DNA of 63,036 nucleotides from Akkermansiaceae bacterium. GTDB lineage: Bacteria > Verrucomicrobiota > Verrucomicrobiia > Verrucomicrobiales > Akkermansiaceae. Under the pieces are notes generated by a model. The model was given only the letters and a program-made list of their open reading frames with translations, made no database searches and was not told the origin of the DNA. This document shows positions 19,846 to 26,350 of the stretch, in pieces (position 1 is the stretch's first letter; every line of letters begins with the position of its first letter). The DNA lies in NCBI GenBank assembly GCA_013001695.1, contig JABDMC010000311.1:1-63036 (forward strand). The letters run 5' to 3'. A program made the translations under genes and the position numbers.

Positions 19846-21219
19846 TCAACGCGGCTTGACCTCCGCGGCCCACGCCTCGTGCATGGCCCGGAGTTCCGCG
19901 ACGATCCCGGGCCGGTCCTTCGCGTGGTCCTTGACCTCCGGCTCCGGGTCGGTGAGCCGGCGCAGGGACACGTCCGGTTTCCCGTCGGTCCCGAGCAACT
20001 TCCACTCGCCCCGCCGCACGGCCCACTGCTTGTGCCACTGGAAGTGAAGCACGCCGCGATAGTTCGATTCGGCCTCGGCGGATGCGATGATGGGAACGAG
20101 ACTGTGGCCGTCGAGCTTGGGGGCGTCGTCCCCCGGCGCGATCCCGCAGAGCTCGAGGACGGTCGGAAACCAGTCCATGGCGGTGATCGTCTGCCGGCGG
20201 ACCGCTCCCTGCGGCAGCTTGGCCGGATAGCTGATGATGGCCGGCACCCGGATGCCGCCTTCGAGGAAGTTGCCCTTGTGCCCGATCCACTTCCCGGTGC
20301 TGCCGCCGCCGCTGGCGCCGTAGAAGTGGTCCTTGGGCAACCCGCTCTTGTGATTCTCGACGCGGATCACGATCCTGGTCTCCTCCGAGTGCCCGTTGTC
20401 GCTCATGAAGATGACGATGGTGTCGTCCCGGATCCCGAGGGCCTCGAGCTTCCCGACGACCTGGCCGATGTAGTGGTCGGTGGTGCTGACGATGGCGCCG
20501 TAGGACCGGCGGGCCGGGTCGGGGAGGTCGTCATAGAGCGCTTCGAACCGCTTCAAGGCCTGCTCGGGGTAGTGCGGGATGTTGAACGGGACGTAGAGGA
20601 AGAACGGGCCGTCCCGGTTCTCCTCGATGAATTCCAGCGCGCGCCGCACCATCATTTCGGGAAAATAGCTTCCCGCGGCGTCGAGCACCTCCTCGGTCCC
20701 CTCGTAGAGGTCGTGGTAGCCGGACCCGTGCAGGAAGTAATGATTGTAGTTGTCGATGAAGCCGTCGCGGATGCCGAAGAACTCGTCAAAGCCCTGCTTC
20801 TTCGGCCCGTGGTCCTTGTGCGCGCCGAGGTGCCACTTTCCGAAGAGGGCGGTCCGGTACCCGGCGGGCTTGAGCGCTTCCGCGAGGGTGAGTTCCTCGA
20901 GGGCCATGTTGATGCCCTTGGCGCTGTTCATGTCGCCCTGCGTCCAGTGGCGGACGCCGCCGCGCTGGGGATGGCGCCCGGTCAGGAGGGCGGCGCGCGC
21001 CGGACAACACACGGTGTGCGCGTAGGCCTGCGTGAAACGGACCCCGGTCGCGGCGAGCTTGTCGATGTGCGGCGTATGCAGGTCGGTGGAGCCGTAGCAG
21101 TTGGCGTCCAGCGTCCCCTGGTCGTCGGTGAACAGGATCACGACGTTGGGCGGTGCCGCCGCGGGGAGCGGCCACGGAAGGAGAAGCAGGCAGAGGAGAG
21201 CTTGGGTGCGGGGATTCAT
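19846..21219 (-). CDS. Secreted FGly-dependent sulfatase
   Basis: 457 residues, signal peptide MNPRTQALLCLLLLPWPLPA. Metal-binding Asp pair in VVILFTDDQG (Asp32-Asp33). The sulfatase signature is VCCPARAALLTGR, with Cys71 (C-x-P-x-R) to be converted to formylglycine; GKWHLG and MSDNGHSEE follow near 126 and 276. It removes sulfate esters, probably from a glycan, in the periplasm or outside. No sulfatase-maturing enzyme gene lies in the window. Gene order on the minus strand (sulfatase 22862-21249, 29-bp gap, this gene, DUF1080) suggests one operon. Confidence 0.92.
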   Translation of the reverse strand: MNPRTQALLCLLLLPWPLPAAAPPNVVILFTDDQGTLDANCYGSTDLHTPHIDKLAATGVRFTQAYAHTVCCPARAALLTGRHPQRGGVRHWTQGDMNSAKGINMALEELTLAEALKPAGYRTALFGKWHLGAHKDHGPKKQGFDEFFGIRDGFIDNYNHYFLHGSGYHDLYEGTEEVLDAAGSYFPEMMVRRALEFIEENRDGPFFLYVPFNIPHYPEQALKRFEALYDDLPDPARRSYGAIVSTTDHYIGQVVGKLEALGIRDDTIVIFMSDNGHSEETRIVIRVENHKSGLPKDHFYGASGGGSTGKWIGHKGNFLEGGIRVPAIISYPAKLPQGAVRRQTITAMDWFPTVLELCGIAPGDDAPKLDGHSLVPIIASAEAESNYRGVLHFQWHKQWAVRRGEWKLLGTDGKPDVSLRRLTDPEPEVKDHAKDRPGIVAELRAMHEAWAAEVKPR

Positions 21220-21248
21220 CGGGAGCGTTGGTGCTTGGATTTCGAGGG

Positions 21249-22862
21249 TCACCTCCTTCCGCCGGCATCGGTGCGCTTCTCCCAGGCGGCGTGGAGTTTG
21301 CGGAGAGCGGCGACTTGATCGGGATGCCTGGCGGCGAGGTCGTGGAGCTCGGTTCCGTCGGCGTCGAGATTGTAGAGTTCCCACGGTTTCCGGCCTTCCC
21401 GGACGAGCTTCCACGGGCCCTTGCGCACCGCCTTCCCCTTGGCGTGCGCCCAGAAGATGGCCTCCAGCGGGGCCGCGGGCCTTGCCGAACCGGTGAGGAC
21501 CGGCAGGAACGTGCGGCCTTCCATTGCGAGGGGCTTCTCGCCCGCGCCATCCGGTCGAGGCCACTCGACGCCCGCGGCCCCGACCAGGGTCGGCATGATG
21601 TCGATGACGTGGCAGACGCGGGCATTGAGGCTGCCGGGCGTGGGTCCCTCCGTCGCCCCGCCGCGCTTGATCCGCTCCGGCCACGAGACGATGAGCGGCG
21701 AGCGCGTTCCGCCCTCGTGGTCATGCTGCTTGAAGAGCCGGAAGGGGGTGTTGCTGGCGTTGGCCCACCCATACCCGTAGCTCTGGTAGGTGTGCTCCGG
21801 TCCCGGCATGTGTTCCGGCAGGTTCCCGGGGATCATCGGCTTGCCGTCGCGGGTCTTCTCCGGGAGGTAGGCCCCCTTGCGGCCGGGACCGTACTCCACA
21901 TGGCAGCCGCCATTGTCGTGCATGTAGAGGATGAGCGTCTCCGCAAACTCGCCGCTCTCCCTGACGTGCTGCACGACGCGGCCGATGCCTTCGTCCATCA
22001 CGGTGACCTGGGCGGCATAGACCTCCATCCGGCGCTGCTGCCAATCCCGGTGAGCGGCCTCCTCCCATGCCGGAACGTCCGGGTGGCGCGGCGAGAGGGC
22101 CCATGCCGGGTCGACCACCCCGAGTTCCTTCATGCGCGCGTGCCGTTGTTCCCGGAGCTTGTCCCAGCCCATGGCGTATTTCCCCCTGTACTTGGCGATG
22201 TCCGATTCCCGGGCGTGCAACGGCCAGTGGGCCGCGGTGTAGGCCATGTACAGGAAGTAGGGTTTCTCCGCGGCGCGTTCCCTGTGCTCCCGCAGGAACG
22301 CGAGGGCGTTGTCGCTGATGGCGTCGGTGTAGTAGTAGCCGGGATCGTCCGCGAAGTCCGCGGAGGCGTCCTGGCCGTCGCGGACCAGGGAGACCGGAGC
22401 ATAGAAGCTCCCCGCACCGTGAATCGTCCCGTAAAAGCGGTCGAAGCCGCGGTGGTGGGGAGCATTCGGGCCGTCGGGGCGCTGCGGGTCGGAGAGGTGC
22501 CACTTCCCCGCCATGTAGGTCCGGTATCCGCCGTCGCGCAGGATCTGCGGCAGGGTGATGGCGCCCGGGCGCAGTCCGCCATCCGCGGATCCGTTCCGCG
22601 GAAGGGCCGTCTTCGGGTACTGGCTCGTCATGAGGCTGGCGCGCGTCGGCCAGCACATGTTGTTGACGTAGAAGTTCGTGAAGCGCACCCCTCCCTTGGC
22701 AAGGTCATCGAGGTGCGGCGTCCGGATCTCTCCCCCGTAGCAACCGAGGTCGGAGTAGCCCATGTCGTCCGCGATGATCAGGATGATGTTGGGCGCCTTG
22801 GCCGGACTGGCGCCCGCCAGGCCCAGGGCGATGAGAAAGGGGAGGAGCGTCCGAAAATTCAT
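21249..22862 (-). CDS. Secreted arylsulfatase-type sulfatase
   Basis: 537 residues with a signal peptide (MNFRTLLPFLIALGLAGAS). Metal-binding DD in IILIIADDMGYSDLGCYGG near 32; signature NMCWPTRASLMTSQYP with Cys70 as the formylglycine precursor; AGKWHLSDPQRPDGP near 117; LYMHDNGGCHVEYGPGRKG near 317 supplies further metal and sulfate ligands. C-terminal sub-domain ends with PWELYNLDADGTELHDLA. Typical S1-family sulfatase of the PVC bacteria acting on sulfated polysaccharide. It is first in the minus-strand operon and divergent from a third sulfatase (81 bp apart). Confidence 0.92.
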   Translation of the reverse strand: MNFRTLLPFLIALGLAGASPAKAPNIILIIADDMGYSDLGCYGGEIRTPHLDDLAKGGVRFTNFYVNNMCWPTRASLMTSQYPKTALPRNGSADGGLRPGAITLPQILRDGGYRTYMAGKWHLSDPQRPDGPNAPHHRGFDRFYGTIHGAGSFYAPVSLVRDGQDASADFADDPGYYYTDAISDNALAFLREHRERAAEKPYFLYMAYTAAHWPLHARESDIAKYRGKYAMGWDKLREQRHARMKELGVVDPAWALSPRHPDVPAWEEAAHRDWQQRRMEVYAAQVTVMDEGIGRVVQHVRESGEFAETLILYMHDNGGCHVEYGPGRKGAYLPEKTRDGKPMIPGNLPEHMPGPEHTYQSYGYGWANASNTPFRLFKQHDHEGGTRSPLIVSWPERIKRGGATEGPTPGSLNARVCHVIDIMPTLVGAAGVEWPRPDGAGEKPLAMEGRTFLPVLTGSARPAAPLEAIFWAHAKGKAVRKGPWKLVREGRKPWELYNLDADGTELHDLAARHPDQVAALRKLHAAWEKRTDAGGRR

Positions 22863-22900
22863 GGGATGGTCCCGGCCACTAGACCATGCGGTCCGCGATG

Positions 22901-22930
22901 GGAAAGAATTTCCTTCGGGAGAACGTTCTC
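22901..22930. promoter_or_regulatory. Two palindromes in the divergent sulfatase promoter
   Basis: GGAAAGAATTTCC (22901-22913; 5-bp arms around GAA) and GAGAACGTTCTC (22919-22930; perfect 12-bp palindrome with a central CG) lie side by side in the 81-bp gap between two divergent sulfatase genes. The central-CG palindrome has the look of a LacI-type operator. A GGGG Shine-Dalgarno-like stretch follows before the ATG at 22944. Confidence 0.4.
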
Positions 22931-22943
22931 AGGGGACCACCTC

Positions 22944-24461
22944 ATGAAGCACCTCGTCGTTTCCCTGCTCTCCATCTTCGCGGCTTGTTCGCTCCTTCCC
23001 GCGGCGTCGAAGCCGAACATCATGGTCTTCCTCGTGGACGACATGGGCGTCATGGACACCTCCGTCCCGTTCCTGACCGATGCCGCCGGGAAGCCGAAGC
23101 GCTACCCGCTCAACGACTACTACCGGACGCCCTCGATGGAGCGCCTCGCGAAGCTCGGGATCCGCTTCAACAACTTCTACGCGATGAGCGTCTGCTCGCC
23201 GACGCGCATCTCGATCATGAGCGGCCAGAACGCCGCCCGCCACGCGGCCACGAACTGGATCTCCCCGGACAAGAACAACCGCGGAACGAAGGGGCCGCCG
23301 GAATGGAACTGGAAGGGGCTGAAGAAGGGCGACGTGACGCTCCCCGGCATTTTGCAGCAGAACGGCTACCACACCATCCACGTCGGGAAGGGGCACTTCG
23401 GCCCGAGGAATTCGGAAGGCGGCGATCCGGCGAACCTCGGATTCGATGTCAACATCGCGGGCGAGTGTTTCGGCGCCCCGGGAAGCTACTACGCGAAGGA
23501 TGACTACGGCGCCAAGACGAAGCGCAAGAACCACGCCGTGCCGCACCTCGAGGCCTACCACGGGACCGGAACATTCCTGACCGAGGCGCTCACCCTCGAG
23601 GCGAAGAAGGCGGTCGCGAAGGCCGTGCAGGACGACCGGCCGTTCTACCTCTACTTCTCACACTATGCGGTGCACGCCCCGTTCCACTCCGACCCGCGAT
23701 TCGCGGCGCATTACGCCGACTCCGGCAAGCCCGGGAACGCGCAGGCCTTCGCGACGCTCATCGAGGGGATGGACAAGTCGCTCGGCGACATGCTCGACCA
23801 GTTCGAGGAACTCGGGGTCGCGGAGAACACGCTCGTCTTGTTCCTCGGCGACAACGGGTCCGATGCCCCGCTCGGTCACCAGCACGCCGTGGCGTGCGCC
23901 GCGCCCCTGCGGGGGAAGAAAGGGGCCCACTACGAGGGCGGCATGCGGGTCCCCTTCATCGCGGCATGGGCCAAACCGAGTCCCGGGAACGCCTTCCAGA
24001 AGCGGCTCCCCCTTCCCGCGGATGCCATCCAGTCGCAGGCCGCGGCGGTGCATGACCTCTTTCCGACGATCCTCACCGTCGCGGGGGGCAAGGCCCCGAA
24101 GAAGCACACCGTGGACGGCATCCCCCTCCAGACCCTGCTCACCGGCAAGCCCGACCCGGACCGCCGGCAAACCTTCCTGATGCACTACCCGCACGGGCCG
24201 CACCGCAGCAGCTACTTCACGGTCTGGCGCGACGGCGACTGGAAGTTGATCCACCACTACTTCCCGTCGAAGGAATCCGGGGGCGGGCATCACCAGCTCT
24301 ACAACCTCGCGGAGGACCCCTTCGAGTCCACCAACCTCGCGACCGCCCGGCCGGACGAGCTGGAGCGCATGGGGAAGGGACTGGCGGCGGCCCTTGACGC
24401 CCACGGCGCGCTCTACCCCGTCGATGGCGACGGCCGGCCCGTGAAGCCCCGGTTGGAGTGA
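22944..24461 (+). CDS. Secreted sulfatase
   Basis: 505 residues with a signal peptide (MKHLVVSLLSIFAACSLLPAA). Metal ligands in MVFLVDDMGVMDTS (Asp32-Asp33), signature SVCSPTRISIMSGQN with Cys84 as formylglycine precursor, HVGKGHFGP near 150 and LFLGDNGSDAPLG near 299. C-terminus ends in the usual YNLAEDPFESTNLA. An AGGGGA ribosome binding site sits 8 bases before the ATG. The stop codon TGA (24459-24461) is inside the REP palindrome at the left end of the RAYT element. Confidence 0.92.
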   Translation: MKHLVVSLLSIFAACSLLPAASKPNIMVFLVDDMGVMDTSVPFLTDAAGKPKRYPLNDYYRTPSMERLAKLGIRFNNFYAMSVCSPTRISIMSGQNAARHAATNWISPDKNNRGTKGPPEWNWKGLKKGDVTLPGILQQNGYHTIHVGKGHFGPRNSEGGDPANLGFDVNIAGECFGAPGSYYAKDDYGAKTKRKNHAVPHLEAYHGTGTFLTEALTLEAKKAVAKAVQDDRPFYLYFSHYAVHAPFHSDPRFAAHYADSGKPGNAQAFATLIEGMDKSLGDMLDQFEELGVAENTLVLFLGDNGSDAPLGHQHAVACAAPLRGKKGAHYEGGMRVPFIAAWAKPSPGNAFQKRLPLPADAIQSQAAAVHDLFPTILTVAGGKAPKKHTVDGIPLQTLLTGKPDPDRRQTFLMHYPHGPHRSSYFTVWRDGDWKLIHHYFPSKESGGGHHQLYNLAEDPFESTNLATARPDELERMGKGLAAALDAHGALYPVDGDGRPVKPRLE

Positions 24462-24476
24462 CGGCTTTAGCCGTTC
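24452..24476 (+). repeat. Left REP-like palindrome of the RAYT element
   Basis: 25 bases starting GTTGGAGTGACGGC and containing the hairpin ACGGCT-TT-AGCCGT. Its inverted copy is at 25250-25274 with a single T/C difference. It overlaps the sulfatase stop codon. Confidence 0.75.
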
Positions 24477-24564
24477 TCGAGGGTTCACCCGCTGCCGAAG
24501 CGCCACTCCGGGGGCATTGGGGATGACTCGACCGATGCGATCTCCCGTGCGACAAGCATGACGA

Positions 24565-25200
24565 GTGATGTATGCGTGGCGAAGAATGACGGAGAGCGAA
24601 CGAGAGGCCGTCCTTCGCGCCCGGAAGCAGCACGGGCAACCATGGCATTCCGTTCCGTGCATTGATTCTGGCCGGCGCGCCTACATGATGACGGCCGCCT
24701 GCTTCGAGCACCGGCCACATATCGGGTTCTCCACCGACCGCATGAACAGCTTCCGCGACGAGCTGCTTGCAGCCATTCGCGAAATGGACGGCCTTGAGGA
24801 GCTCATTGCCCGGGTGCTCCTTCCCGATCACGACCACTTTCTCTGTCACGCCACCGATATCAGGCAATGCAAGAAAGACCTTGGCCTTCTGCACGGCCGC
24901 ACCTCCTTCAATTGGAACAAGGATGAGAATCGCGCGGGCCGCAAGGTGTGGTTCAGGGCAGCAGAGACGGTGATGAAGTCCGATCGGCACTATTGGGCGA
25001 CCGTGAACTACATCCACCGGAACCCCGTCCGGCACGCGTGCGCGCGGGCTGCGGAGGACTGGACGTGGTCGAGCCTGGCAGATTGGAGGAAGGGCGCAGG
25101 TGTGGCGGCATTGTCAAACCTCGAGGAGGAATTCCCCGTCGATGAATACGGGAAGGGCTGGGATGATGACGACCTCTCCGCGTGGAAGGCCATGGCGTGA
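24565..25200 (+). CDS. REP-associated tyrosine transposase (RAYT, Y1_Tnp)
   Basis: 211 residues from GTG at 24565 (ATG at 24568 and 24586 are alternatives). The HUH-like motif is seen as LLPDHDHFLCHA near 90, where most relatives have MPNHVH. The second landmark YIHRNPVRHACARAAEDWTWSS near 150 carries the catalytic Tyr and the usual NPV. RAYTs cut single-stranded REP hairpins and move them around the chromosome but are normally single-copy, domesticated genes. Flanking inverted REPs (24452-24476, 25250-25274) are the expected substrate. Probably functional: no frameshift or stop. Confidence 0.88.
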   Translation: MMYAWRRMTESEREAVLRARKQHGQPWHSVPCIDSGRRAYMMTAACFEHRPHIGFSTDRMNSFRDELLAAIREMDGLEELIARVLLPDHDHFLCHATDIRQCKKDLGLLHGRTSFNWNKDENRAGRKVWFRAAETVMKSDRHYWATVNYIHRNPVRHACARAAEDWTWSSLADWRKGAGVAALSNLEEEFPVDEYGKGWDDDDLSAWKAMA

Positions 25201-25249
25201 CGGATCACGGCCTCGCGGGTTGGCATTTGCCATCGGGACTACTCTCGCG

Positions 25250-25274
25250 GAACGGCTGAAGCCGTCACTCCAAC
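25250..25274 (-). repeat. Right REP-like palindrome of the RAYT element
   Basis: Read on the minus strand it matches the left copy at 24 of 25 positions (hairpin ACGGCT-TC-AGCCGT). It starts directly after the ThuA stop codon at 25275-25277. Confidence 0.75.
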
Positions 25275-26276
25275 TCACTTCCGCAGCTCGAACTCGCGCA
25301 CCGAAGGCTTGCCGGTCCCCGGGAAGTCCTCCGGGACCGGCTGGGTGACCTTGCCGGTGGCGGCCCATTCGCAGCCGCGGAGGAAGGTCACGATGAAACC
25401 GACGCACTCGAACGAATAGTCGTCGTGTCCGAGGGTGGTGTGGAAGACGCGCCCCTTGCCGTAGTCGATCGTCATCAGCATCGGCTCGTTGCGCCCGGCC
25501 TCCTGCAGCTTGGGGGTGTCGCAGGCGGTGGCGAGGACGGTCATGTTCTCGGCCGGCCCGCGCAGGAACGAGTAGCACTCGTCCTTGGAGTGCATCCAGA
25601 AGTCCGGGACGCCCTTCGTGATGGGATGCTCCTTGTCACGCATCGTGATGAGAAATTCGCTCTGCGGCCCGTGGGCGCCGCACTTCCCCGGGCTGGTGTC
25701 GCGGACGAGCTTCCCGTCCTTGTCGTAATAGACGTAAGGCCCGCTTTTCTCGTTGCGGCCTCCCCAGCCGCCCACGCCGATCATCTTGTTGAACTCGGGC
25801 CATTCCGGCCAGCTGTTGTCCGCGGCGTGCACCACGGCGAGGCCCCCGCCGTTCTTCATGTAGGTCTCGAACTTCCGCTTCGTGTCTTCCGGCCAGCCGG
25901 CGGCCTTCCATCCGAAATTGCTGACCACCAGGTCGTACTTCGTGAAGTCCGGGTCGAAGGCGGGATCGGGCTGCGGCTCCTTGAGCTTCTCCGACTCGCC
26001 GGCCCCGGCGAGCGGCAGCCAGTCCTCTTCGCGCTCCCACTTCCAGATGAATTTCGTCCGGGCCACGTCGACGTCGAACAACCCCGATTCCTCGAGGTAT
26101 TGTTTCATCATGATCGTCGACTTCGGCCAGACGGCGTGGTTGTTCTGACCATCGACGATCAGGGCTTTCATCTTCCCGGCGGCACTTGCCCATGGCGTGC
26201 AGGCGAGAAGAGCAAAAAGCAAGAAGATCCCGGAAGCGGTTCGGAAGGGCGGCAGGTTGGGGCGATGGATGTTCAT
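25275..26276 (-). CDS. Secreted ThuA-domain protein
   Basis: 333 residues. The start at 26276 gives MNIHRPNLPPFRTASG followed by the hydrophobic IFLLFALLACTPWASA signal; the frame is open to 26339. The ThuA (GATase-1-like) fold is recognised from KALIVDGQNNHAVWP near 36, YDLVVSNFGWKAAGWP near 112, GGGLAVVHAADNSWPEW near 143, KEHPITKGVPDFWMHSKDE near 214 and GKGRVFHTTLGHDDYSF near 274. ThuA proteins take part in trehalose/keto-sugar use and are abundant in PVC bacteria, often with DUF1080. Last gene of the minus-strand redox block. Confidence 0.88.
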   Translation of the reverse strand: MNIHRPNLPPFRTASGIFLLFALLACTPWASAAGKMKALIVDGQNNHAVWPKSTIMMKQYLEESGLFDVDVARTKFIWKWEREEDWLPLAGAGESEKLKEPQPDPAFDPDFTKYDLVVSNFGWKAAGWPEDTKRKFETYMKNGGGLAVVHAADNSWPEWPEFNKMIGVGGWGGRNEKSGPYVYYDKDGKLVRDTSPGKCGAHGPQSEFLITMRDKEHPITKGVPDFWMHSKDECYSFLRGPAENMTVLATACDTPKLQEAGRNEPMLMTIDYGKGRVFHTTLGHDDYSFECVGFIVTFLRGCEWAATGKVTQPVPEDFPGTGKPSVREFELRK

Positions 26277-26350
26277 GAGATGGAGTGGTTCTACGCGATA
26301 CGTGCCCCCAACGGAATTTCTAAGCCGCGAAATGCACACATTTCACCCGT

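Follow-up and report, generated by a model that had tools for sequence, protein, structure and literature searches.

Among the described systems closest to the locus reported here is TnpAREP of E. coli (4ER8) with its REPtron, and the likeness covers the fold, the HUH-Y core, the Y...NP signature, the tagged hairpins flanking the gene and the dispersed REPs. Among the Y1 transposases, the published rows of subclass 2.8 are eight proteins, all from cyanobacteria, whose tags are GT[AG]G, according to the accessible part of its description (Quentin et al. 2018, PMC6006769). In the accessible sections of PMC3733652, REPs of the PVC group lie mostly between co-oriented or convergent ORFs, downstream of genes, and carry the tags GTAG, its degenerations GYAG, GYRG, GTRG and GTMG, and GTGG; the GTAG-tagged REPs of Opitutus terrae and others described there come from the same superphylum as our locus and are likewise linked to a RAYT. 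REPINs, in the excerpt of PMC3116915 at hand, are inverted REP pairs that form a mobile unit, and for E. coli a class of REPs lying no more than 15 nt from a stop codon has been described (PMC12306157, in part).

We compared with these systems a locus from an Akkermansiaceae bacterium (assembly GCA_013001695.1, contig JABDMC010000311.1). The window is the whole stretch of 63,036 nucleotides that was analysed, and its features are listed in Table 1. A first-pass annotation had described a RAYT ORF between two inverted palindromes matching at 24 of 25 positions, the left one containing the sulfatase TGA, the right one adjoining the ThuA stop and the element as a whole filling the gap between the convergent genes. 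All of this was borne out: the arms are inverted copies of 25 nt with one difference (96% complementary), and the ORF coordinates leave 813 bp between the two stops (24462-25274), which the element occupies. The sulfatase ORF ends with TTG GAG TGA at 24461, its stop and last two codons lying inside the left arm, and the minus-strand ThuA ORF has its stop at 25275-25277, directly adjoining the right arm. Both REPs have the layout GTT-GGAG-TG-ACGGC-TTYA-GCCGT, a short unpaired foot followed by a 5-bp hairpin. With up to 3 mismatches allowed, the window holds two occurrences of the 19-nt REP core (0.06 expected), and none of 100 shuffles gave as many. Further, the window contains three consecutive sulfatase-like ORFs at 19846-24461; the last, on the plus strand, is the one checked against Pfam, and the other two run on the minus strand.

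Table 1. Features of the element and its neighbours, in window coordinates
Feature	Position	Strand	Remark
Sulfatase (PF00884), upstream neighbour	22944..24461	+	
Left REP	24452..24476	+	GTT + tag GGAG + TG + hairpin ACGGC-TTTA-GCCGT
Sulfatase stop TGA, from left REP	24459..24461	+	
RAYT gene	24568..25200	+	210 aa from ATG; GTG 24565 also possible
HUH motif D88-H89-D90-H91 (numbered from GTG 24565)	24826..24837	+	clade norm NHYH
E134 codon, aligned with E. coli TnpAREP E100	24964..24966	+	tracks REP tag base 2
Codon of presumed catalytic tyrosine Y149 (YIHRNP)	25009..25011	+	
Right REP, inverted	25250..25274	-	matches genome consensus perfectly
ThuA-domain protein (PF06283), convergent downstream neighbour	25275..26339	-	

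The stem of the window REP is a perfect 5-bp helix with a TTYA loop, unlike the bulged stem of the E. coli REP, and its tag is GGAG, where E. coli has GTAG and the canonical REP tag is GTAG or GT[AG]G. GGAG also differs from the tags reported in the accessible sections of PMC3733652 and is absent from the main text of PMC6006769, PMC3733652, PMC8266576 and PMC12306157; no paper on a RAYT or TnpAREP with GGAG was among the matches listed. A hairpin at each stop of two convergent genes could also act as a bidirectional intrinsic terminator, a use that the first-pass annotation had suggested. No T-tract and no terminator-like site was found in 24300-25400, and the other copies of the REP lie mostly between co-oriented genes, some of them just before start codons. 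We consider a terminator scarcely credible.

The ORF was listed from GTG 24565 (211 aa), while the start used by the relatives corresponds to the next codon, ATG 24568. Its protein matched the NCBIfam profile NF047646 (REP_Tyr_transpos) with an E-value of 3.4e-16 and 59.4 bits, below the curated cut-off of 80, and a Pfam search gave no match at E 0.001. An AlphaFold (AF2) model, for which 70 of the 75 relatives listed from fetched loci were used, reached a pLDDT of 89.5. Its best PDB match was 4ER8, E. coli TnpAREP bound to REP (Foldseek E 6.6e-8), and VIA-align superposed 158 residues of the two at 3.1 A (Z 15.3; next row Z 8.8), with about 16% identity over the fold. The window YIHRNP aligns with YIYINP of 4ER8; thus the Y...NP signature is present in place of the Y...Q of IS200/IS605 transposases. 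Unlike E. coli TnpAREP, the window RAYT has an N-terminal extension and HDH in place of HUH: both His of the motif (PDHDHF) are kept, with Asp between them where RAYTs have a bulky hydrophobic residue. By strict criteria the protein is therefore a deviant relative of the RAYTs that works or worked like one, and not a typical member. The divergence of the motif had been noted in the first pass as DHDHFL versus NHVHLL; the divergence stands, with NHYH and not NHVH as the norm of the clade.

A scan of genome_contigs gave 312 stretches encoding relatives, 80 of which were kept (81 loci with the window); one scan of viral_contigs, in which viral spread was considered, gave none. The clade is found mainly in Verrucomicrobiota, Acidobacteriota and Planctomycetota, and relatives in these phyla and others share the anatomy of the element. 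The HUH motif was NHYH in 74 of the 81 rows, NHWH in 3, and DHYH, NHDH, NQYH and DHDH (the window) in 1 each. At the 81 loci we counted 402 tagged TTNA-loop hairpins outside RAYT genes and 2 inside, with at least one tagged hairpin at 77 loci, at least two at 74 and none at 4. Stem pairs 2-4 vary among the hairpins of the relatives with the pairing kept. The tags of the 402 hairpins were GGAG (183), GTAG (109), GGTG (36), AGAG (29), GTTG (16), GGGG (11) and others (18), and 56 of the 74 loci with two or more hairpins had a single tag only. In a swapped-flank control, which is blunt since REPs of different genomes are alike, 30 of 81 loci lay above the 99th percentile, the window not among them. 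No clear offset was seen for a fixed CT or CA cleavage dinucleotide beside the hairpins of each tag class. By the accessible description of subclass 2.8 (HYH, a proline-rich N-terminus, about 199 aa, YIHYNP), the clade resembles that subclass, sharing NHYH, a length of about 200 aa, YIHxNP, the proline-rich N-terminus and flanking REPs, with the window protein lacking HYH. The tags differ, being G[GT][AT]G or AGAG in the clade versus GT[AG]G in the published rows of subclass 2.8.

The palindrome is dispersed through the genome: a count proposed by the first-pass annotation gave 14 copies at up to 3 mismatches in 5.13 Mb (399 contigs) and 0 for the reversed-pattern control. Two copies, C194 and C396:7853, carry compensating stem changes. 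Neighbour orientation was taken from a self-trained gene caller, not otherwise validated. Among the 12 copies outside the window, 8 lie between co-oriented genes, 1 is clearly convergent (C194), 1 possibly so (C106) and 1 divergent (C125), and orientation was not assigned for C60, where the stretch from the hairpin to the contig end has no called gene. The enrichment at convergent gene ends for which the first-pass annotation had proposed a check was therefore not seen. In all 12 (11 gaps) the distance to the neighbouring called gene is shorter from the tag than from the hairpin. This bias would fit REPs that are the outer ends of longer decayed elements, but an inverted partner scoring above every shuffle was recognisable beside two distant copies only, C117 and C194. 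Nearly all members of this REP family are solo, unlike the REPINs in the portion of PMC3116915 at hand.

The gene boxed by inverted hairpins resembles IS200/IS605 elements, and the whole 823-bp unit might be an IS200-like transposon, autonomous and still mobile as one piece. We regard this as very improbable: a second copy of the whole unit was not seen, since the further two members of the clade that this genome encodes are only 41% and 47% identical to the window RAYT; the other copies are solo REPs; and the window protein is deviant. As a separate observation, two REPs in direct orientation lie 92 bp apart at G000:C361:1572-1687, each followed by similar sequence. The repeat CACCGCTGATGGACGCTGATGAACGCTGAT has 7 matches in the genome at up to 3 mismatches (control 0), 3 of which are within about 35 bases of window-REP copies (G000:C396:7884, C162:4624, C361:1603).

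To place the presumed insertion, orthologues of the sulfatase were collected (97 of 189 genomes had a match at E 1e-120; 30 loci fetched, one being the window). All 29 orthologues read (66-71% identical) terminate at most a few residues from the end of the window protein, typically with KPxLP before the stop where the window has KPRLE, and none of the 29 has the REP at that end. Since the ends coincide, the REP is placed at what was already the end of the gene, whose last codon it seems to have rewritten. Of the earlier suggestion, insertion at gene ends or terminator use, the placement at a gene end is supported. ThuA was downstream at 0 of the 29 orthologue loci within the locus fetched, congeneric ThuA loci showed no convergent sulfatase neighbour, and no element-free convergent sulfatase-ThuA pair was found among 14 congeners, the 29 orthologue loci and the ThuA loci. 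Neither the window REP nor, at E 0.001, a RAYT of the window clade was present in any of the 14 congeners.

The REP supplies an in-frame TGA to the sulfatase and to a gene on C396, completes a TAG at C194 and, as the right arm, abuts the ThuA stop. By the gene calls, 4 of 14 copies (window left and right, C194, C396:7853) thus have the beginning of the REP within a stop or adjoining one, and together with the E. coli class of REPs within 15 nt of a stop described in the available part of PMC12306157 this speaks for REPs kept at gene ends for an action on RNA, with a hairpin at most 15 nt from the stop slowing ribosomes or shielding mRNA, exapted here as a 3'-end regulator of sulfatase and ThuA. 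Most copies are not at stops, though; the REP is kept in no congener, and its absence at this place in all sulfatase orthologues argues against a conserved role. We find such exaptation unlikely.

Taken with the sub-threshold profile match and the fold, the cognate tagged hairpins on both sides of the gene and at scattered sites elsewhere in the genome bear out the first-pass reading of a RAYT with terminal REPs. We conclude that the element is very probably a REPtron, in which two inverted cognate REPs enclose a RAYT gene. This is a known kind of element, and the window example is ordinary apart from its deviant active site. In the mechanism that we propose, the RAYT would most likely have read the unpaired GGAG tag and the 5-bp hairpin with its TTYA loop, cut and joined single-stranded REP DNA via a covalent tyrosine link, and thereby scattered roughly a dozen solo REPs through the genome. 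An insertion into the 3' end of the sulfatase gene would have brought in the GGAGTGA of the REP that now supplies the stop there. Any effect of the REPs on the mRNA of the neighbours would be secondary.

The window RAYT has an intact ORF. Of the 56 columns whose conservation across the other 80 rows is at least 90%, it breaks 12, the most of all 81 rows (median 2); a truncated row (L207) breaks 11. Its end branch measures 1.17 versus a median of 0.29 and is the only one flagged as long. Because the HUH motif and other conserved sites deviate, we think that the protein is weakened or no longer active, and we take the window copy for an old REPtron that is perhaps inactive. A function that has changed but been retained would fit as well. 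Plain pseudogene decay as the sole reading was rejected, as the reading frame is open: drift without selection along so long a branch should have broken it, so that the gene need not be dead. In an Acidobacteria MAG (L165), a RAYT with NHDH has nearly identical inverted flanks of about 80 nt on both sides, which suggests recent activity, so that HDH need not mean inactivity.

The genome carries a second full-length clade member on contig C133 (G000:C133:1-7326, L256), with the canonical NHYH. Its REP, AGT[T/C]CCGCCTTCAGGCGG, has 26 matches at up to 1 mismatch (reversed control 5 at up to 2 mismatches). In the stretches read, these REPs form 8 inverted pairs of 106-161 bp on several contigs, and these REPIN-like units recall the mobile unit described in the consulted part of PMC3116915. 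Three such inverted pairs stand in a row on C141. We read C133 as the younger REPtron and the window as the older.

What is new here is the variation of the tag within the clade and its link to one residue. When the columns of the alignment were scanned against the individual tag positions, a single pair stood out, base 2 with the E134 column (normalised mutual information 0.60; next column 0.29). Window E134 aligns with E100 of 4ER8, and position 100 of the E. coli protein is named among the GTAG-interaction residues in the accessible parts of both PMC6006769 and PMC8266576, in the latter as D100. A prediction was fixed before 47 further loci were tested, of which 12 at least 90% identical to known ones were dropped. 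The remaining 35 held-out loci comprised 18 with a standard tag, 10 without a hairpin of this form and 7 with a non-standard string. Asp was present at all 12 held-out GTAG loci, and the other six (GGAG 4, GGTG 1, AGAG 1) had Glu (3), Ala (2) or Pro (1). Asp also occurred at 11 of the 17 loci without a standard tag, and Asp alone is therefore not proof of a T-tag.

Across 95 pooled rows, T at base 2 was paired with Asp in 35 cases and with another residue in none, and G with Asp in 7 and with another residue in 53. Pagel's dependent model was favoured over the independent one (LRT 37.0, 4 df, p 1.8e-7) on the whole quick tree, in which many forks are weak, and under it the change from G to T is essentially confined to an Asp background. 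Where branches were well supported, the tree-aware pairs numbered 2, too few for a test. E. coli TnpAREP has Glu with GTAG, contrary to a general code, and together with the 7 Asp/G-tag rows this makes the association clade-specific and correlational. Within the same genome, the window combines E134 with GGAG, and C133 combines Asp with GTAG in 14 of the 16 REPs of its eight pairs. From these alignments we see about an even chance that in this clade the residue at E134 reads base 2 of the unpaired tag, in which case Asp would permit T (GTAG, GTTG), Glu or another residue would go with G (GGAG, GGTG), and the residue would change first with the whole REP population following. No report of a link of Glu/Asp to G/T was found in our literature searches, which took in only a minority of subscription papers.

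REPs are common bacterial repeats, and how a RAYT recognizes its own REP alone and how enzyme and target change together are poorly understood. If the proposed reading is true, a single conservative substitution could be enough to retarget a REPtron, and the window (E134 with GGAG) and C133 (Asp with mostly GTAG) would form a matched natural contrast in one genome. A large clade whose naturally varying tag follows one residue would offer a direct test of RAYT-REP recognition.
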